Of a DNA stretch of 64,000 nucleotides, positions 37,576-45,532 are shown one piece after another (position 1 is the stretch's first letter; each line of letters begins with the position of its first letter). The DNA lies in the NCBI RefSeq assembly GCF_900119165.1, contig NZ_FPJG01000006.1, forward strand, positions 6,138,001 through 6,202,000, given 5' to 3'. This stretch comes from Amycolatopsis australiensis. GTDB lineage: Bacteria; Actinomycetota; Actinomycetes; Mycobacteriales; Pseudonocardiaceae. Below the pieces are notes generated by a model. It worked only from the letters and a program-made list of their open reading frames with translations, searched no databases and was not told the origin of the DNA. The position numbers and the translations under genes were made by a program.

Positions 37576-38325
37576 GTGCACGTCCGTCCCGTTCCGCCGG
37601 CCAGCGTGGCCGCGCCCGCCGATGCCGTCACCGGCAGCGCCTGGATCACGTCGCTCGCCGTGCCCGAAGGCCCGTCGCGGACCCGGGTGGACCGGGTGCA
37701 GTTCGCGCCCGGCGCCCGGACCCGCTGGCACCGGCACCCGCTCGGGCAGGTGCTCGTCGTCACCGAAGGCACCGGTTACGTGCAGCGCCGGGGCGGTCCG
37801 GCCCAGCTGGTCCGGCCGGGCGACACCGTCCGCGTCGGCGCCGGGGAATGGCACTGGCACGGCGCCACCGACACGTCCGCGATGACCCACCTGGCAATCG
37901 AGGAAATCCCCGGCGACGGCACCCCTACCGAACTCGGCGACGCCGTGGCCGGTGCCGATGCCGCCGCGGTCCCGGCCGAGCCCGTCACCCGGACCCTGGT
38001 GCTGGAGCAGCGGCTCCCGCAGCCGCGTCTGGTCGACCACGTCGAGATCCGCCGCATCACGATCGCCCCCGGCCACGGGTCGGGCCTGCACGTCCACAAC
38101 GGACCGGTGTTCGGCAGCATCGAAACCGGTTCGGCCGTCTACCAGGTCGAGGGCGAACCCGCCTCGGTGCTGCGCGCGGGCGACGTGTTCCATGAGCCGG
38201 AAGGAGCGCGGATCGCCCGGTTCGACGCCGGGGAAGACGGGGTCACGTTCATCGCCCACTTCCCCGCCGGCCCGGGCGAGACGCCGCAGCTGTTCGCCCT
38301 CAGCACCCGGGGAGAAGACGGATGA
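37576..38325 (+). CDS. Double-cupin protein
   Basis: A 249-residue bicupin. The N-terminal cupin has TRWHRHPLGQ and GEWHWHGAT, a full metal-binding His set. The C-terminal cupin has GLHVHNGPVF and ends with a strand EPEGARIARF. Such proteins act as isomerases, oxygenases or binding proteins for small carbonyl compounds. The GTG at 37576 is ten bases after the TetR stop and follows GAGGAGC. Its stop overlaps the SDR start as ATGA. Confidence 0.8.
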   Translation: MHVRPVPPASVAAPADAVTGSAWITSLAVPEGPSRTRVDRVQFAPGARTRWHRHPLGQVLVVTEGTGYVQRRGGPAQLVRPGDTVRVGAGEWHWHGATDTSAMTHLAIEEIPGDGTPTELGDAVAGADAAAVPAEPVTRTLVLEQRLPQPRLVDHVEIRRITIAPGHGSGLHVHNGPVFGSIETGSAVYQVEGEPASVLRAGDVFHEPEGARIARFDAGEDGVTFIAHFPAGPGETPQLFALSTRGEDG

Positions 38326-39095
38326 ACCGAGACACCGCCCACGGTGTCCTCGTGACCGGCGGGTCGCGCGGCATCGGCCGGGCCACCGCCCGTGCCTTCG
38401 CCGACCGCGGATACCGCGTCGCGGTCCACTACGCGAGCCGCCGCGAAGACGCCGAGACGACGTTGCGCGAGCTGCCCGGCTCCGGGCACGTCTGCCTCGC
38501 GGGCGACCTCGGCGACCCGGCCGCGGCCCGCCGGATCGCCGACGAGGCGGTCGCGGCGCTCGGCCGGGTCGACGTCCTGGTCAACAACGCCGCCCAGGCC
38601 CCGACCGAGCAGACCCGGCACGCGATCGCCGAGGTCGGCTACGACCGGTGGGTGGAGGTCTGGCGGCGCACCGTCGAGGTCAACCTCCTCGGCGCCGCGA
38701 ACGTCACCTGGGCCGTGGCCCGGCACCTCATCGGACAGGGCCGCCCGGGCAGTGTCGTCAACGTCGGCTCGCGCGGCGCGTTCCGCGGCGAGCCCGAGCA
38801 CCCGGCCTACGGCGCGAGCAAGGCGGCGCTGCAGGCGTTCGGCCAGTCCATGGCGATCGCCTTGGCCCCGCACGGGATCTCGGTGACGTCGGTCGCGCCG
38901 GGGTTCGTCGCGACCGAGCGCCAGGAGACGGCGCTGGCCGGCCCGCACGGAGACCGGCTGCGGGAACAGAGCCCGTTCGGTCGGGTCGGCACGGCCGAGG
39001 ATGTCGCCGCGGCGATCGTGCACCTCGCCTCACCCGAGGCCGCCTGGAGCTCCGGCGCCGTCCTCGACGTCAACGGCGCGTCGTACCTGCGCTGA
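38322..39095 (+). CDS. Short-chain dehydrogenase/reductase
   Basis: A 257-residue SDR with TGGSRGIGRA for cofactor binding, NNAA after strand 4, catalytic Ser in NVGSRGAF and YGASK (Y-x-x-x-K). HYASRRED after strand 2 favours NADP. It closes the TetR-cupin-SDR operon, overlapping the cupin gene by four bases. The pair probably acts on the same carbonyl substrate, released from repression by the TetR ligand. Its 3' end overlaps a convergent gene by 66 bases. Confidence 0.9.
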   Translation: MNRDTAHGVLVTGGSRGIGRATARAFADRGYRVAVHYASRREDAETTLRELPGSGHVCLAGDLGDPAAARRIADEAVAALGRVDVLVNNAAQAPTEQTRHAIAEVGYDRWVEVWRRTVEVNLLGAANVTWAVARHLIGQGRPGSVVNVGSRGAFRGEPEHPAYGASKAALQAFGQSMAIALAPHGISVTSVAPGFVATERQETALAGPHGDRLREQSPFGRVGTAEDVAAAIVHLASPEAAWSSGAVLDVNGASYLR

Positions 39096-39452
39096 CCGCG
39101 CCCGCCAGAGCGTGATCGCGACGAGCACGAGCACCGCCACTTCCGCGAGGACGCTCAGCAGCGCCTCCGGCGCGGGCTGGAACCCCCGCTCGGAGAAGCC
39201 GAACACCCCGATGGTGCGCGACGCGGCGAACCCCGCCAGCGCCCCCGCCGCCAGGCCGGCCGCGGCCGGCCGCAGCAGCAGCGGGCCGCCGGCGGCGACC
39301 AGCACCGCGACCGCGAACGCCGCCGCGGCCTGCGCCAGGAACGCCGGCCCGATCACCGGGATCACCCGGTACCCGCCGACGTAGAGCTCCGCGTGGAGGT
39401 AGCCGCTCACCGCGAGGCACGCGGCCGTCGCGAGGCGGAGAAAGAGGTTCAT
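39030..39452 (-). CDS. Small membrane protein in the sigma-Rieske operon
   Basis: A 140-residue membrane protein with four hydrophobic segments at about 3-19, 33-55, 58-78 and 95-114. Its C-terminal tail (RSAQVRRAVDVEDG) is cytoplasmic by the charge rule. I know no named family. Its start overlaps the metallophosphoesterase stop as ATGA, and it is the last gene of the five-gene operon. The last 66 bases run antisense to the SDR gene. Confidence 0.72.
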   Translation of the reverse strand: MNLFLRLATAACLAVSGYLHAELYVGGYRVIPVIGPAFLAQAAAAFAVAVLVAAGGPLLLRPAAAGLAAGALAGFAASRTIGVFGFSERGFQPAPEALLSVLAEVAVLVLVAITLWRARSAQVRRAVDVEDGAGAPGGLG

Positions 39453-40387
39453 GCCAGCTTCACGTCCTTCACGGCCAGCCCCGGCCGGCCGGGCCGGTAG
39501 GACACCTCGCGGATCCCGAGCGCGTCCGCGAGCTTCCCGGCCGGCAGCGTCACCGGGGTCGGGGCCGGCCGGGTGCCCGGTCGCGGCAAGGGATAGGCCG
39601 TCGTCGTCGCGCTGTGGAAGGTGATGTTGCCTTCGGTTTTGGTGAACAGCTGGTGCACGTGCCCGTTGAGGCAGGTCACCGACGAAAACCGCTTCAAGTA
39701 CGACAGCGCCTGCGCCGCGTCGTCGGTGCCCCAGCCCCACGCCGGGTACATGGCGAACAGCGGGATGTGGCTGAACACCACGATCGGCGTGTCCGAGCCG
39801 AGCTTCGCCACGTCCTTGCGCACGAACTCCAGCTGGTCGGTCCCGAGGTGGCCGAGCTTCTCCAGGCTCAGCGTGTTGACCAGCGCGATGAAGTGGACGC
39901 CTTTGACGTCGAAGCTGTACCAGCCGTCGCCCGCCGTGCCGGCGCCGAACGCCGCGCGGTACTTCTGCCCGGCGTCGTCGACCGAGTCGTGCTCGCCGGG
40001 CACGGTGGACACGTGCCCGGTGTTCAGCGTGCCCATCATCTGCTTGACCTGGTCGAACTGGGCCGGCGTCGACAGGTGCGTCAGGTCGCCGGTGTGCATG
40101 ACGAAGTCCGGGCGGTAGCCGAGGCCGTTGATCTGGGTCAGCGCCCGGGAGAACGACGACTCGACGGCGGTGTTGGCCGGTCCCTTGAACCCCAGGTGGC
40201 TGTCGCTGATCTGGACGAACCGCAGCGCGTTCGGGTCGTCGACGGCGGCGGCTTCGCCCGGGGCGGCGATCCGGCTGATCACCTCGCCGCCGGTCACCGT
40301 CAGGACCACCGCGGCGCCGAACCACGCGGTGTGGCGCAGCAGCTGGCGCCGGGTCATGCCGCCGGGGCCGTGCTCGTCCCCGGTCAC
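39449..40387 (-). CDS. Tat-exported calcineurin-like metallophosphoesterase
   Basis: A 312-residue exported phosphoesterase. The N-terminus holds a Tat motif (MTRRQLLRHTAWF) and hydrophobic segment (about 21-33). Metal-binding blocks are ISDSHLG, HTGDLTH, PGEHD (in place of GNHD), FSHIPL and NGHVH. It would hydrolyse a phosphoester at the cell surface, and the substrate is unknown. The GTG at 40387 overlaps the cupredoxin stop as GTGA. Folding with metal before export fits Tat use and a place beside other Tat/metal proteins. Confidence 0.9.
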   Translation of the reverse strand: MTGDEHGPGGMTRRQLLRHTAWFGAAVVLTVTGGEVISRIAAPGEAAAVDDPNALRFVQISDSHLGFKGPANTAVESSFSRALTQINGLGYRPDFVMHTGDLTHLSTPAQFDQVKQMMGTLNTGHVSTVPGEHDSVDDAGQKYRAAFGAGTAGDGWYSFDVKGVHFIALVNTLSLEKLGHLGTDQLEFVRKDVAKLGSDTPIVVFSHIPLFAMYPAWGWGTDDAAQALSYLKRFSSVTCLNGHVHQLFTKTEGNITFHSATTTAYPLPRPGTRPAPTPVTLPAGKLADALGIREVSYRPGRPGLAVKDVKLA

Positions 40388-40797
40388 GGCGTCACCGTCA
40401 CGGTGGCCGTCATGAACGGGTGGATGGTGCACAGGTACTCGAAGGTGCCCGCGGTGCTGAAGGTGTACTGATAGGACTGTCCGGTTTGGAGGGTCGGGGA
40501 CCGCAGCGGGCCGCCGGACCCGGTGCTGGTGACGGTGTGCGCGTCCTGGTCCTGGTTGGTCCACGTGACCGTGGTGCCCTTCTTCACCGTCGTCGCCGCG
40601 GGCGCGAACGCGAAGTCCTTGATGGCCACGGTGTTCGTGGTGGCGTTCCCGCTCGCGCTCGGCGACGTCGGCGCCATGCTCGCCATGTCCGGCATCGACG
40701 GCGGCGGCGTGGCCGGTGCCGGCGCGGCGCAGGCCGTGAGCGCCAGCGCCGCCACGCTCACGAGCAGGAAGTGTTTCACCCCAAGGGAATTCCTCAT
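40384..40797 (-). CDS. Type-1 copper (cupredoxin) lipoprotein
   Basis: A 137-residue lipoprotein. The signal has lipobox LTAC with Cys23, then a Met-rich linker (SMPDMASMAP) that may bind copper. The cupredoxin fold gives the full type-1 ligand set: His87, Cys123, His126 and Met129 (DAHTV, EYLCTIHPFM). It is a small electron carrier at the outer face of the membrane. A CGTAACC-N6-CGTATTC element ends six bases before the ATG. The GTG at 40779 is an alternative start with a GAGG upstream. Confidence 0.9.
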   Translation of the reverse strand: MRNSLGVKHFLLVSVAALALTACAAPAPATPPPSMPDMASMAPTSPSASGNATTNTVAIKDFAFAPAATTVKKGTTVTWTNQDQDAHTVTSTGSGGPLRSPTLQTGQSYQYTFSTAGTFEYLCTIHPFMTATVTVTP

Positions 40798-40801
40798 GCC
40801 C

Positions 40802-40825
40802 GGGAATACGCGCGGGGGTTACGCC
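40802..40825 (-). promoter_or_regulatory. Bipartite element facing cupredoxin gene
   Basis: On the minus strand CGTAACC (40823-40817), six bases, then CGTATTC (40810-40804). It overlaps the last codon and stop of the Rieske gene and ends six bases before the cupredoxin ATG. It is one of three such elements in the locus. Confidence 0.7.
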
Positions 40826-41502
40826 CCGGCCGGCGGCACCAGCACCTCGACCACTCCCCCCGCTTCACGCACCACCAGGTGCGGCAGCGGCGGCGGCGTG
40901 ACCGGCAGCTGGTGGGTGAGGACGACCCCGTCGACGGCGAACGACGTCCGGTGGCACGGGCAGTTCAGCCGCCGTGCCGGCGCGTCCAGGTTCAGCCGGC
41001 AGCCGAGGTGCGTGCACGTCGCCGACACACCGCGCACCTGCCCGCCGGTGCGGTGCACGAACCCCGCCACCGCCCCGAAGTCGAACGGCAGGACCCCGCC
41101 CTCGGGCAGGTCGTGCGCCGCGACGACGGCGCGCCACTCGCCGTTCTCGGGCTGCAGGGTCTCCTCCGGCGGAGGGGGCGCCGCGGCCGGTTCGGCGGCC
41201 GAGGTGACCAGGTACTCGGTCCCGGCCCCGGCCGCGGCCGCCACCGCGGCGGCCGAGGACACCTGGATGAACCGGCGGCGGTTGCCGCCGCGCGCGGGAG
41301 CCGGCTCGCCGAGCTCCTGGGCGAGCCGCCGGTGCAGCCCGGCGACGAACTCCTCGCCGGGCGCCGCGCCGCCCGGCCGGGCGGCGCGCAGCAGCACCGC
41401 CGTCCGCAGCTCGGCTTCGTCGCCCGGACCGGCCGCGAACGGGCGCGGCCGCCGCCGGCGCAGGAGGTCCTTGACGAACCGGCGGACGCCTCGAGTGCTC
41501 AC
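40819..41502 (-). CDS. Membrane Rieske 2Fe-2S protein, possible anti-sigma
   Basis: A 227-residue protein. Residues 1-74 are cytoplasmic, charged and helical (PGDEAELRTAVLLRAARPGG, EEFVAGLHRRLAQEL). A twin-Arg-type membrane segment follows (RRRFIQVSSAAAVAAAAGAG, 75-94). The extracytoplasmic Rieske domain has C163-T-H165 and C181-P-C183-H184, with C168 and C183 available for the disulfide of bc1-type Rieske proteins. Start GTG overlaps the ECF sigma stop as GTGA, the usual place of an anti-sigma factor. The N-terminus has no zinc HxxxCxxC motif. The anti-sigma role is inference. Confidence 0.9.
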   Translation of the reverse strand: MSTRGVRRFVKDLLRRRRPRPFAAGPGDEAELRTAVLLRAARPGGAAPGEEFVAGLHRRLAQELGEPAPARGGNRRRFIQVSSAAAVAAAAGAGTEYLVTSAAEPAAAPPPPEETLQPENGEWRAVVAAHDLPEGGVLPFDFGAVAGFVHRTGGQVRGVSATCTHLGCRLNLDAPARRLNCPCHRTSFAVDGVVLTHQLPVTPPPLPHLVVREAGGVVEVLVPPAGA

Positions 41503-42080
41503 GTCTCCATCCCTTCCGCCAGCTGAGCCGCCTGACGCAGTGCGCGGTGCTGCAGCACTTTCGCGTTGCCGACGGTCACGCCCAGCTCGGCCGCCGCCTC
41601 CTTGAGCGAACAGGCCTGCAGGAACCGCAGGCGCAGGATCCGGCCGTACCGCTCGGGCAGCTGCGCCAGGATCGCCTCCGCGCGGGCCAGTATGCCCGGG
41701 TCCACGGTGCCTTCCTCGAAGGCGGCGACGTCGCGTTCCTCGTCGAGCGTCGTGATCTCCCGGCCGAGCGTGCGCCGCCAGTGCCCGGCCAGCACCGTCC
41801 GGGCCGTGGCCAGCAGGTATGCCCGTACCTCGCCGACGCTCGCCGAGACGCGCAGCGGCCGCAACGCGGTCAGGAAGACCTCGGTCGTGAGGTCCTCCGC
41901 GTCGGGCCGGTTGCCCACCTTCGAGAACATCAGCCGGTAGACGCGGTCGACGTTGTCGCGGTAGACCGCCTCCCAGTCCGGGTAGACGTCCGCGCCGACC
42001 GCGTGCAGCCGCGGGCGCGGCGCCGCGCCCGCCTCGTCCTGTTCGGCGCGCCTGCGCCGGAACCGCTGTGCCACCGGCAC
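41499..42080 (-). CDS. ECF-family RNA polymerase sigma factor
   Basis: A 193-residue sigma factor with region 2 (DRVYRLMFSKVGNRPDAEDL, then TTEVFLTALRPL) and region 4 (LPERYGRILRLRFLQACSLK, then ELGVTVGNAKVLQHRAL). The GTG at 42080 follows AGAAGG; the frame to 42203 crosses the control region. It is translationally coupled to a membrane Rieske protein rather than a recognised anti-sigma. Targets are probably its own operon and the divergent haloperoxidase gene, both preceded by the same bipartite element. Confidence 0.92.
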   Translation of the reverse strand: MPVAQRFRRRRAEQDEAGAAPRPRLHAVGADVYPDWEAVYRDNVDRVYRLMFSKVGNRPDAEDLTTEVFLTALRPLRVSASVGEVRAYLLATARTVLAGHWRRTLGREITTLDEERDVAAFEEGTVDPGILARAEAILAQLPERYGRILRLRFLQACSLKEAAAELGVTVGNAKVLQHRALRQAAQLAEGMET

Positions 42081-42119
42081 CGCCCGCCTTCTCCCCGCCG
42101 ACTCTTCTCCCACCACCCG

Positions 42120-42143
42120 AGGGATACGCGGCGGGGTTACGCC
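42120..42143 (-). promoter_or_regulatory. Bipartite element facing the ECF sigma gene
   Basis: On the minus strand CGTAACC (42141-42135), six bases, then CGTATCC (42128-42122). It shares 20 of 24 bases with the cupredoxin element. It ends 41 bases from the sigma start codon. Confidence 0.75.
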
Positions 42144-42164
42144 GTAACCGGTGACCGTATCCGG
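42141..42164 (+). promoter_or_regulatory. Bipartite element facing the haloperoxidase gene
   Basis: CGTAACC (42143-42149), six bases, then CGTATCC (42156-42162), ending 33 bases before the ATG at 42196. With the opposite element it forms the palindrome GGTTACG-C-CGTAACC (42135-42149). Confidence 0.7.
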
Positions 42165-42195
42165 GAGCGGACCATCCGACGACCCGGGGAGCGCC

Positions 42196-43464
42196 ATGAC
42201 CACATCGATGTCCCGCCGTCAGCTGCTCGTCTCGGGCGGGACGGCCGCCGCCGTCCTCGCCACCACCGGCCTGCCGGGACCGGCCGCCGCCGCACCGCCC
42301 CGCCCGAACGGCGCGGACGTCGTCCTCGCCTGGAACCGCGAGCTGCTGGCCGTCGTGCGCACGCCCGGCCTGCAGCCCGCGACCGTGCACCCGACGCGGA
42401 GTTTCGCGCTGCTGCACGCGGCGATGCACGACGCCGTCGTCGCGACGGCCGGCACCGGGCGGCCCTACCTGTTCACCGTCGACGTCCCGGGCCACGCGGC
42501 GCCGGAAGCGGCGGCGGCGCAGGCCGCGCACGACGTGCTGGCCACGCTCTACCCGAGCGAGGGCAGCGAGTTCGCGAGCCTGCTGGCCGGGCAGCTGGTC
42601 CGGGTGGGCCCGGCGGGCCGGGACGCGGGCGTGCGGGCCGGGCGGCTGGTCGCCCGGCTGCTGCTCGGCCTGCGCGCGAACGACGGCTCGGCCGCTGTCC
42701 CGCCGGTACCGGCCCCCGGGACGGCGCCCGGGCAGTACCGGCCGGCCCCGCCCGCGTTCGCGCCGGCGGTGTTCACCCACTGGCCCGCCGTGACGCCGTT
42801 CGTGCTCGACCGGGCGGAGCAGTTCCGGCCCGGCCCGTACCCGGCGCTGACCGGCGAGCGGTACGCCCGCGCGGTGCGCGAAGTGGCGGCGGCCGGGCGT
42901 GACACGAGCACGACCCGCACCGCCGACGAGACGGTCCGGGCACGGTTCTGGGCGGCGCCGATCTGGAACTACTGGAACGAGATCGCGCAGGCGGTGGTCG
43001 GCGGTTCCCGCGGCGGCCTGCTGGTCGCGGCCCGCGTGTTCGCCCGGCTCAACCTGGCGTTCGCCGACGCGGTGATCGCGTTGTACGAGGCGAAGTACCA
43101 CTACCGGATCTGGCGCCCGATCACGGCGATCCGCCTGGCGGGCGAGGACGGCAACCCGGCGACGGAGGCGATCCCGGACTGGTCGAGCTTGGCGAACACC
43201 CCGCCCGACCCGGCGTACCCGGGCGCGCACAGCGTCGTCTCGCAGGCGGGGGCGCTGGTGCTGCGCCAGGAGTACGGGCCGCGGTGGCCGCTGGCGGTGA
43301 CGTCCGAGGCGCTGCCGGGCGTGGTCCGCCGGTTCGCGACGTTCCAGGACGCCGCCGACGAAGCCGGGCTGAGCCGGATCGTGGCCGGCGTGCACACGCG
43401 TCTCGACCACGAAGCCGGGCGGCAGCTGGGCCTCGACGTCGCCGCCTTCGTGCTCCGCCCGTGA
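42196..43464 (+). CDS. Secreted vanadium haloperoxidase/PAP2-type enzyme
   Basis: A 422-residue exported enzyme. The N-terminus has a Tat motif (SRRQLLVSGGTAAAVLA). The phosphate or vanadate site is spread over KYHYRIWRPI (Lys and Arg), PGAHSV (Gly-Ala-His-Ser) and GVHTRLDHEAG (Arg and His), as in bacterial vanadium-dependent haloperoxidases and acid phosphatases. It would use peroxide and halide, or hydrolyse phosphoesters; sequence alone does not decide. It is divergent from the ECF operon, with a shared control region, so it probably belongs to the same response. Confidence 0.87.
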   Translation: MTTSMSRRQLLVSGGTAAAVLATTGLPGPAAAAPPRPNGADVVLAWNRELLAVVRTPGLQPATVHPTRSFALLHAAMHDAVVATAGTGRPYLFTVDVPGHAAPEAAAAQAAHDVLATLYPSEGSEFASLLAGQLVRVGPAGRDAGVRAGRLVARLLLGLRANDGSAAVPPVPAPGTAPGQYRPAPPAFAPAVFTHWPAVTPFVLDRAEQFRPGPYPALTGERYARAVREVAAAGRDTSTTRTADETVRARFWAAPIWNYWNEIAQAVVGGSRGGLLVAARVFARLNLAFADAVIALYEAKYHYRIWRPITAIRLAGEDGNPATEAIPDWSSLANTPPDPAYPGAHSVVSQAGALVLRQEYGPRWPLAVTSEALPGVVRRFATFQDAADEAGLSRIVAGVHTRLDHEAGRQLGLDVAAFVLRP

Positions 43465-43631: not shown

Positions 43632-44756
43632 CTAGATCTCCTGCCCGCCGGCGAACGCCGCCACCAAGCCGTGGGGTGCGTCGGCGCCGTAGAGGAACTC
43701 GTGCAGCCGCGTGCCGTCCGCCGCCGCTTCCTTGCCGCGCGGGAACATCGCCGCTTCGTACTCGGCCAAGGCCGACTCCACGTCCTCCGGGTGCGCCGCG
43801 ATCGCCTTCGCGAGTTCCGAGCCGTCGAACATGGCCAGATTGGCGCCTTCGCCGTTCGGTGCCGCGAGGTGCGCGGCGTCACCCACCAGTGTCACCCCCG
43901 GCACCCGGTCCCAGTGGTGCCCGATCGGCAGTGCGAACAGCGGCCGCAGCACCGGGGCGGTGTCGCTGCCGGTGATCAGCGCCGTCAGCTCCGGCGCCCA
44001 GCCGTCGAACTCCCGCGCGACCCGCGCGGCCGCCGCGGCGGGGTCGGTGAAGTCGATGGCGGCGAACCAGTCCTGCGGCTCGGTCAGCGCCACGTAGGCG
44101 TGGAGGGTGCCGCCCTTCTCCCGGTGCGCCTGGATCCCCTTGCCGGGCGCGAGTGCCATCATCGAGCCGCCGCCGACCGCTTTCGCCGCGGCCGGGTGGC
44201 GGGTGTCGCTGTCGAACAGGTAGGTCTCGACGAACGACCGGCCGACGTACTCGGGTATGGCGGCCGAAAGCAGCGGCCGGACGCGCGACCACGCGCCGTC
44301 CGCGCCGACGAGCAGGTCCGCCACCACCGTGCTGCCGTCGGCGAACGTCACCTCGTGGCGGCCCTCCCCCACGGTCCGGGCGCCGGTGCCCCGGTGTCCC
44401 CATCGGACGGTGCCGGCGGGCAGCGCGTCGAGCAGCATCCGCCGCAGCTCGCCGCGCTGCACCTCCGGACGTCCGCCCGTACCGTCGTCGGGCTCGTCGT
44501 GCAGGACGGTGCCGTCGCGGTCCAGCACCCGGGTCGCCTGGCGGCCCGGCAGGACGAGGGCGCGGAACTCGTCCACCAGGCCGGCCGCTTCGAGGGCGAG
44601 CTGCCCGTTGTGCTCGTGGATGTCGAGCATGCCGCCTTGAGCGCGGGCCGCCGGGGACGCCTCCGCCTCGTAGACCGTGGCCGGGATGCCGTGGACGTGC
44701 AGGACGCGGGCGAGGGTGAGGCCGCCGAGGCCGGCGCCGATGATCGTGACGTTCAC
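43632..44756 (-). CDS. FAD-dependent monooxygenase (TetX-like)
   Basis: A 374-residue flavoprotein of the class A monooxygenases. It shows the dinucleotide motif GAGLGGLTLARVL, the DG-type motif LVGADGAWSRVRP, and the FAD-binding GD motif TLVGDAAHLAAPNGEGANLA. The last form is close to TetX and related drug-inactivating hydroxylases. GTG at 44756 follows AAGGAGT. It is divergent from a TetR regulator over two tandem 15-base palindromes. It probably hydroxylates an aromatic compound that also releases the repressor. Confidence 0.9.
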   Translation of the reverse strand: MNVTIIGAGLGGLTLARVLHVHGIPATVYEAEASPAARAQGGMLDIHEHNGQLALEAAGLVDEFRALVLPGRQATRVLDRDGTVLHDEPDDGTGGRPEVQRGELRRMLLDALPAGTVRWGHRGTGARTVGEGRHEVTFADGSTVVADLLVGADGAWSRVRPLLSAAIPEYVGRSFVETYLFDSDTRHPAAAKAVGGGSMMALAPGKGIQAHREKGGTLHAYVALTEPQDWFAAIDFTDPAAAAARVAREFDGWAPELTALITGSDTAPVLRPLFALPIGHHWDRVPGVTLVGDAAHLAAPNGEGANLAMFDGSELAKAIAAHPEDVESALAEYEAAMFPRGKEAAADGTRLHEFLYGADAPHGLVAAFAGGQEI

Positions 44757-44772
44757 GGTGACTCCTTCAGGT

Positions 44773-44805
44773 TGGAATGCCATTCCATGTTGGAACGTCG
44801 TTCCA
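44773..44805. promoter_or_regulatory. Two tandem TetR operators
   Basis: TGGAATG-C-CATTCCA (44773-44787) and TGGAACG-T-CGTTCCA (44791-44805) are both perfect 15-base palindromes, with centres 18 bases apart. They fill the gap between the divergent monooxygenase and TetR start codons. Confidence 0.88.
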
Positions 44806-44824
44806 GATGTGTCAAGATGGCCGC

Positions 44825-45532
44825 ATGGCAACGCGGACGCGCCGGGCCCAGCGGCGCACTGAGGCCCTCACCCGGGAGCGCATCGTCGAGGCGGCCGTCG
44901 AGCTGCTCGACACGGCCGGCGAGAGCGGGCTGACGTTCCGGGCGCTGACCGAGCGGCTCGCGACCGGCGCCGGCGCGATCTACTGGCACGTCGCGAACAA
45001 GAACGAGCTGCTCGACGCGGCCACCGACGGCGTCGTCGCCGCCGCGCTGGCCGTCGAGCCCGCGGACTCGCCCCGCGACGGGATCCGCGCCGCCGCGCTC
45101 GGGCTGTTCGACGCGATCGAGCGTCACCCCTGGCTCGCCGCGCAGCTCGCCCTGCAGCTGTCGCGCAGCCCGTGGGGGTCGGTGACCCCGCGGATCTTCG
45201 AAAGCATCGGCAGGCAGGTGCTCGCGCTCGGCGTGCCGGAAGGCAGCCTTTTCACCGCGACGTCGGCGCTGGTGCACTACGTTCTCGGCGCGGCGGGCCA
45301 GAACGCCGCGAACGCGGGCGGCCCGCCGTCCGAAGTCGACCGTGCCGAGTTCCTCGACGCGGTTTCGCAGGCGTGGGAAGAACTCGATCCCGGCGACTAC
45401 CCGTTCACGCGGGCGATCGCGGCCGAGATCCGCGGGCACGACGACCGCGAGCAGTTCCTCGCCGGGATCGACCTCGTCCTCGCCGGCATCACCGCCGTCC
45501 ACCTGGGAGGCGATGCCGGTGCGGATCGCTGA
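44825..45532 (+). CDS. TetR-family repressor
   Basis: A 235-residue repressor with a Tet-type HTH (about 15-60; LTFRALTERLATGAGAIYWH) and a TetR_C-like domain with HPWLAAQLALQLSRSPWG. It probably binds the two palindromes just upstream and controls itself and the divergent FAD monooxygenase, as tetR does for tetX/tetA. ATG at 44825 is chosen; the frame upstream passes through the operators. The last 20 bases overlap the next gene, suggesting an operon. Confidence 0.9.
   Translation: MATRTRRAQRRTEALTRERIVEAAVELLDTAGESGLTFRALTERLATGAGAIYWHVANKNELLDAATDGVVAAALAVEPADSPRDGIRAAALGLFDAIERHPWLAAQLALQLSRSPWGSVTPRIFESIGRQVLALGVPEGSLFTATSALVHYVLGAAGQNAANAGGPPSEVDRAEFLDAVSQAWEELDPGDYPFTRAIAAEIRGHDDREQFLAGIDLVLAGITAVHLGGDAGADR

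Follow-up and report, generated by a model that had tools for sequence, protein, structure and literature searches.

What does a Rieske iron-sulfur protein do when its gene directly follows that of an extracytoplasmic function (ECF) sigma factor? The question is raised by a locus of five minus-strand genes and one divergent plus-strand gene in a 64,000-nucleotide stretch of the 9.3 Mb genome of Amycolatopsis australiensis (contig NZ_FPJG01000006.1, positions 6,138,001 to 6,202,000; hereafter the window), the features of which are collected in Table 1. The minus-strand genes encode, in order of transcription, the sigma factor, the Rieske protein, a cupredoxin, a metallophosphoesterase and a small membrane protein, and the divergent gene codes for a haloperoxidase-like protein. 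An earlier sequence-only reading of this DNA had described closely spaced junctions between the five genes, and these hold in the window in both coordinates and strand: the sigma and Rieske genes overlap by GTGA, 21 bases separate the Rieske stop from the cupredoxin ATG (40797; an alternative in-frame GTG start lies at 40779), the cupredoxin and phosphoesterase genes again overlap by GTGA, and the phosphoesterase and membrane protein genes meet at ATGA. Based on the comparisons presented below, we consider it probable that the locus is an autoregulated ECF system, the anti-sigma factor of which is the Rieske protein with an extracytoplasmic sensor.

Loci with this Rieske family were drawn from named genomes (the best 80 of 507 stretches), from 60 genomes of close relatives and from a class-wide sample of 394 genomes, 26 of which, the window's own included, carry the family at E 1e-30; removal of duplicates left 111 distinct loci. 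In every one of the 108 distinct loci for which 300 nt or more upstream of the Rieske gene are available, a sigma factor gene lies directly ahead of it on the same strand, which is the gene adjacency expected of a class III anti-sigma factor; the contig of L062 (in our numbering) stops before reaching that position. Among the 107 loci for which 1.5 kb or more of downstream sequence is available, a same-strand cupredoxin is found within 1.2 kb in 72 and a same-strand phosphoesterase within 2.2 kb in 71, and 28 have the sigma-Rieske pair with no cupredoxin in the flanking DNA examined. The effector genes are located elsewhere or are divergent in a few loci (L014, L091 and L110), and a haloperoxidase is present in the flanking DNA of 16 of the 111, namely Amycolatopsis-type loci, two from Kribbella (L045, L046) and L157. 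The synteny that the sequence-only reading had offered as a check thus extends far beyond one strain, recurring in Pseudonocardiaceae, Nocardia, Mycobacterium, Kribbella, Streptomyces and others. Because the sigma factor is constant and the cupredoxin, phosphoesterase and haloperoxidase vary among loci, the core of the system is the sigma factor together with the Rieske protein, and the remaining genes are cargo.

The domains that had been assigned by eye to the sigma factor, Rieske protein, cupredoxin and metallophosphoesterase are all recovered by Pfam matches above cut-off. In the sigma factor these are Sigma70_r2, r4 and r4_2, with no other region listed, i.e., the ECF organization devoid of region 3, and TIGR02937 is matched with 55.2 bits against a cut-off of 42.9. 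Its closest solved relative in a PDB sequence search is 6dxo_A (E 1.1e-12), which we take to be the sigma-BldN/RsbN complex. It is nonetheless far from BldN proper, scoring 69.1 bits against the cut-off of 206.45 for the BldN equivalog family TIGR02952. The same genome has a separate BldN-like sigma factor (L120), for which TIGR02952 is the best family, at 179 bits against the 206 cut-off, and the gene directly after it encodes a DUF5667 membrane protein. RsbN is described as the founder of the class III anti-sigma factors in PMC8103513 and PMC7406223, the latter interchanging the two names.

The Rieske protein has a predicted three-part architecture. AlphaFold2 places helices at residues 3-14, 26-41 and 50-64, in a block with a predicted local distance difference test (pLDDT) score of 56-85, followed by a stretch scoring below 50 (residues 69-106) and the Rieske domain, which has a pLDDT of 85-98. 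Residues 1-68 are conserved among relatives, and several genomes have a far longer segment separating the helices from the anchor, which fits a separate domain on a tether. A twin-arginine translocation (Tat) signal is recognized by TIGR01409 of NCBIfam at residues 74-102 (19.8 against a cut-off of 16.7 bits), placing an anchor behind the N-terminal domain in a topology that is predicted. The cluster ligands C163, H165, C181 and H184 are invariant in 89 aligned sequences, as is the pair C168/C183. The only Pfam matches are to Rieske and, weakly, TAT_signal, the DUF5667 outside domain being absent. When residues 1-72 were used as the sole query, 72 proteins were retrieved: 70 with a Rieske domain, and two (P0130, P0138) with the same N-terminus, behind which their sequence appears truncated or out of frame. 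No Hx3Cx2C motif was found in residues 1-71 of 39 aligned sequences; PMC7406223 gives it as the motif of class I zinc anti-sigma factors and adds that many proteins of class I are without it.

We then compared a profile of this N-terminus with N-terminal profiles of DUF5667/RsbN-like proteins using hhalign, RsbN's own sequence lying outside the comparison. An ECF sigma hit, BldN-like, is present at 29 of the 30 DUF5667 loci fetched from the class sample, and 21 of the 30 yielded an N-terminus under the motif used, with the divergent-looking L188, L191, L201 and L203 retained. Against the combined DUF5667 set (Amycolatopsis-centred plus class loci) the match has a Prob of 81.8, E 1.1e-5 and a score of 31.8 over 55 columns; against the 21 class-wide loci alone the probability is 59.5%. 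As controls for the score of 31.8, 100 column shuffles gave a mean of 10.3 and a maximum of 19.8, the reversed query 19.3, and 119 windows from other alignments (one empty) a mean of 9.3 and a maximum of 13.5. Given these controls, we take the similarity between the Rieske N-terminus and the DUF5667/RsbN-like N-termini as remote homology.

A second line of evidence comes from a sequence box. In its strict form, GTAACC-N7-GTATYC, it occurs three times in the genome, all at this locus, and its backwards pattern does not occur; with one mismatch allowed, 0.03 boxes are expected by chance in the window. The pattern was derived from this locus and then tested elsewhere in the generalized form GTAACC-N8-TATY, scanned as GTAAC[CT]-N8-TA[TC][CT]. 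Of 107 loci, 87 carry this box no more than 330 nt upstream of the sigma match; of the 74 loci in which a cupredoxin follows downstream, 71 carry it behind the Rieske gene (the exceptions are L092, L098 and L166). The backwards control gave none at either position. These two positions account for 168 of the 184 sense-strand boxes in 1.14 Mb, with three backwards matches overall, and the spacing is fixed: of spacers from 3 to 17, N9 separates GTAAC from TATY in 155 of 163 matches. Since a conserved promoter-like box separates the Rieske and cupredoxin genes, two transcription units are likely rather than one.

In 63 of the 80 boxes on the cupredoxin side and 50 of the 87 on the sigma side, an RTG triplet comes 5-7 nt past TATY, a distance that fits TATY as the -10 element of leaderless or short-leader transcripts; this would place GTAACC near -20 and not at -35. 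The canonical assignment, with GTAACC as the -35 and a GG-rich stretch 16-17 nt further on as the -10 element, is less likely: TATY is the more conserved, the RTG distance holds for most cupredoxin-side boxes, and some mycobacterial start codons or ribosome sites fall inside the GG-rich stretch. Columns 22-27 past GTAACC are somewhat conserved too, leaving room for that assignment. By eye, we also observed GC-rich inverted repeats (CCCGC...GCGGG) just past the cupredoxin-side box, where the cupredoxin transcript presumably begins, in L048, L053, L054, L060, L063, L074, L076, L077 and L083, and short leaderless frames (e.g., L048, L151) whose stop codons fall on or close to the following start codon. 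A literature search on the box returned no title that we recognized as relevant.

Several results weigh against the proposed anti-sigma role and its promoter. With the two narrower Amycolatopsis-centred DUF5667 profiles, hhalign gives 25% and 30%, the first of these scoring 23.2 against at most 21.7 in 200 column shuffles. The N-terminus has no credible Pfam or PDB-sequence match, and a fold comparison of the isolated N-terminal helices likewise gave no credible match. The sigma factor covaries no more with the N-terminus, which has 40 of the top 200 pairs and 64 of the 219 columns, than with the Rieske domain (effective number of sequences, Neff, 48). The box is spaced unlike an ordinary ECF promoter, the elements of which are usually about 8 bp further apart than GTAACC and TATY, and no second conserved element is seen at -35 in the box alignment. 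Finally, 20 of the 107 loci are without the box as defined upstream of the sigma factor: in L006, L095, L101, L106 and L109, TATG replaces TATY, and ten are Mycolicibacterium-type (L061, L067, L069, L072, L078, L084, L085, L099, L104, L107). Nine of these ten have no downstream cupredoxin in the flanking DNA, the contig of L069 ending too early, and in L104 and L107 a box is present further upstream.

The lack of a covariation signal would suit an alternative in which the Rieske protein is an electron carrier working with the cupredoxin, the sigma factor having another or no anti-sigma factor and the N-terminus being an anchoring or assembly element. Electron transfer between Rieske proteins and cupredoxins is well known from respiration and photosynthesis, and a cupredoxin adjoins in 74 loci. 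The Rieske domain resembles the subunits of the cytochrome bc1/b6f complexes and arsenite oxidase in its cluster ligands and extra cysteine pair, and its PDB relatives are b6f-type and arsenite-oxidase proteins. Amycolatopsis heads its named matches, and related proteins, including many from mycobacteria, are named as respiratory or ring-hydroxylating Rieske subunits. The protein falls below the curated cut-offs of the bc1/b6f families (PRK13474, 33.3 against 154 bits; TIGR01416, 24.2 against 97.4 bits) and has an extra, predicted cytoplasmic domain. Against the carrier alternative, that N-terminal domain resembles an anti-sigma domain; no partner oxidoreductase, i.e., no cytochrome b or oxidase gene, is seen at the locus among its reading frames and Pfam matches; and the sigma-Rieske pair without cupredoxin in 28 loci also speaks against a dedicated carrier. 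We regard this alternative as improbable.

The short spacing and missing -35 element would suit a second alternative, in which the box serves as operator for some other DNA-binding regulator and the sigma factor acts elsewhere. Against this, a search of the loci with the six window proteins found no other conserved regulator, and box and sigma-Rieske pair co-occur across Amycolatopsis: among 35 genomes, the six that have the locus contain 18 strict boxes (CGTAT) and the other 29 contain two, the corresponding numbers for a looser box being 25 and 37. A foreign operator is a minority option in our estimate, though one to which we give somewhat more weight than to the electron carrier.

Returning to the anti-sigma reading, the steps that we infer (sigma binding, topology, use of the box as the sigma factor's promoter, release and signal) could run as follows. 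The N-terminal helices, as a divergent class III domain, would hold the sigma factor at the inner face of the membrane, with the folded Rieske domain exported by Tat together with its cluster and acting as a sensor outside. If the cluster changed its redox state, were damaged, or failed to be loaded or exported, the sigma factor would be freed through a conformational change or proteolysis. The freed sigma factor would then transcribe its own gene and that of the anti-sigma factor, the boxed cupredoxin-phosphoesterase-membrane protein unit and, in this genome, the haloperoxidase gene, with perhaps one unlinked secreted protein among its targets. Electron exchange between cupredoxin and Rieske domain may set the sensor. 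In its full form, in which an exported Rieske cluster signals to the sigma factor via a class III domain and the sigma factor uses promoters with a GTAACC-TATY spacing about 8 bp shorter, this scheme is put forward tentatively.

The box also identifies candidate targets outside the core. The secreted protein just mentioned, of 145 aa, is preceded by a GTAACT-type box away from the locus in the same genome (L148, C6:8995100-8998200), and a similar boxed protein is found in A. xylanica (L137); proteins of this kind measure about 145-154 aa and have no Pfam match, and L011, read as DNA only, shows a box with the same downstream pattern. This protein is probably an unlinked member of the regulon. 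In M. moriokaense, a boxed and apparently leaderless DoxX gene directly precedes one sigma-Rieske pair that has no linked cupredoxin (L142), and a second, full locus running from the sigma factor to the membrane protein has a boxed TatA gene immediately in front of it (L143). The haloperoxidase, DoxX and TatA appear to be targets specific to particular lineages, and the boxed TatA suggests that export capacity is co-regulated with the locus. Boxed small secreted proteins of 92-116 aa that are similar to each other were observed in Mycobacteroides and M. moriokaense (L141, L151), and the boxes at L139, L140, L144-L147, L149, L150 and L152 were judged chance-like. The TatA gene bears on a variant in which the loading of the iron-sulfur cluster or the capacity for Tat export is sensed rather than the outside redox state. 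Rieske domains leave the cytoplasm through Tat already folded, and several exported products here have twin-arginine starts; however, the boxed TatA was observed in just one genome, and DoxX and the cupredoxin point to redox work. We consider this variant rather unlikely.

The divergent gene was called a vanadium haloperoxidase/PAP2-type enzyme in the sequence-only reading. Homology to the bacterial vanadium haloperoxidase 4cit_A spans residues 168-420, and the vanadate-site motifs K-x6-RP and R-x5-H are present. In place of the third motif, SGH, PGAH stands where 4cit has TSGH, and Pfam PAP2 remains below cut-off (23.8 against 27.2 bits), so that haloperoxidase activity is at most putative. 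The same reading united this gene and the five others in a single operon-plus-haloperoxidase unit for envelope oxidative or metal stress. Shared control is supported by the three boxes, including that of the haloperoxidase, and the encoded redox-metal proteins are in keeping with such a role. The single unit fares less well: the haloperoxidase lies outside the core, no cupredoxin is seen in the flanking DNA of 28 of the 107 loci, and the box dividing the operon makes two units likely. We find the proposal doubtful as it was framed, though oxidative or metal stress may be the signal for the locus.

Table 1. Features of the sigma-Rieske locus (positions in the window)
Feature	Position	Strand	Basis or remark
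ECF sigma factor gene	41499..42116	-	first codon uncertain (in-frame GTG at 42116 or 42113, or a later one)
Rieske protein of 227 aa, proposed to be anti-sigma factor and sensor	40819..41502	-	Pfam Rieske 41.4 bits; sigma adjacency
Predicted three-helix block, putative class III (RsbN-like) anti-sigma domain, codons 1-68	41299..41502	-	AlphaFold2; profile match
Tat-type signal/anchor, RRRFIQ and hydrophobic stretch, codons 73-102	41197..41286	-	TIGR01409
Rieske [2Fe-2S] domain, codons 122-195	40918..41139	-	Pfam PF00355
Exported cupredoxin, lipoprotein-like start	40384..40797	-	Pfam Cupredoxin_1 and Copper-bind above cut-off
Metallophosphoesterase, twin-arginine start (RRQLL)	39449..40387	-	Pfam Metallophos 42.2 bits
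Small hydrophobic membrane protein, no family	39030..39452	-	no Pfam match; relatives in many related loci
Vanadium-haloperoxidase-like protein, twin-arginine start	42196..43464	+	divergent; 4cit_A, E 2.6e-29
Box GTAACC-N7-GTATCC before sigma	42122..42140	-	conserved in relatives
Box GTAACC-N7-GTATCC before haloperoxidase-like gene	42144..42162	+	
Box GTAACC-N7-GTATTC over Rieske stop codon, before cupredoxin	40804..40822	-	conserved in relatives

At the edges of the locus, the last minus-strand gene overlaps the 3' end of a convergent short-chain dehydrogenase/reductase (SDR) gene (38322-39095) at 39030-39095. On the other side lies a gene for a flavin adenine dinucleotide (FAD)-binding monooxygenase-like protein (43632-44831), 5'-overlapping an opposite-strand frame (44777-45532) that is a TetR-type regulator by appearance; the window scan found no strict box at this pair.

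Sigma-BldN/RsbN of Streptomyces is one of the closest known systems: the sigma factors are related, a single anchored partner gene adjoins that of the sigma factor, and the Rieske N-terminus is profile-similar to DUF5667 proteins that are RsbN-like. The present system differs in the low BldN score of its sigma factor and in having a Rieske domain rather than DUF5667 outside. An iron-sulfur cluster within an anti-sigma factor is a feature shared with RsmA, the partner of sigma-M, and RshA, the partner of SigH; both of these are cytoplasmic, whereas the cluster proposed here would be Rieske-type and on the exported side. PMC3427169 describes both as anti-sigma factors with a [2Fe-2S] cluster, RsmA belonging to the HATPase_c family and RshA having the HX3CX2C motif of zinc-type anti-sigma factors; neither of these precedents is Rieske-type. 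No Rieske anti-sigma factor turned up in our literature search, although ECF group tables may still mention one, and the sections seen of PMC3599157 and PMC5445863 do not place their Rieske proteins beside a sigma factor.

If the proposal is correct, an anti-sigma factor whose iron-sulfur sensor lies outside the cytoplasm would be distributed from Amycolatopsis to Nocardia, Kribbella, Streptomyces and many mycobacteria. This would provide a function for a set of mislabelled proteins and a regulon readable from sequence, and would allow a direct test of actinobacterial redox sensing outside the membrane. The Rieske protein may thus inform the cell of redox conditions at its surface.

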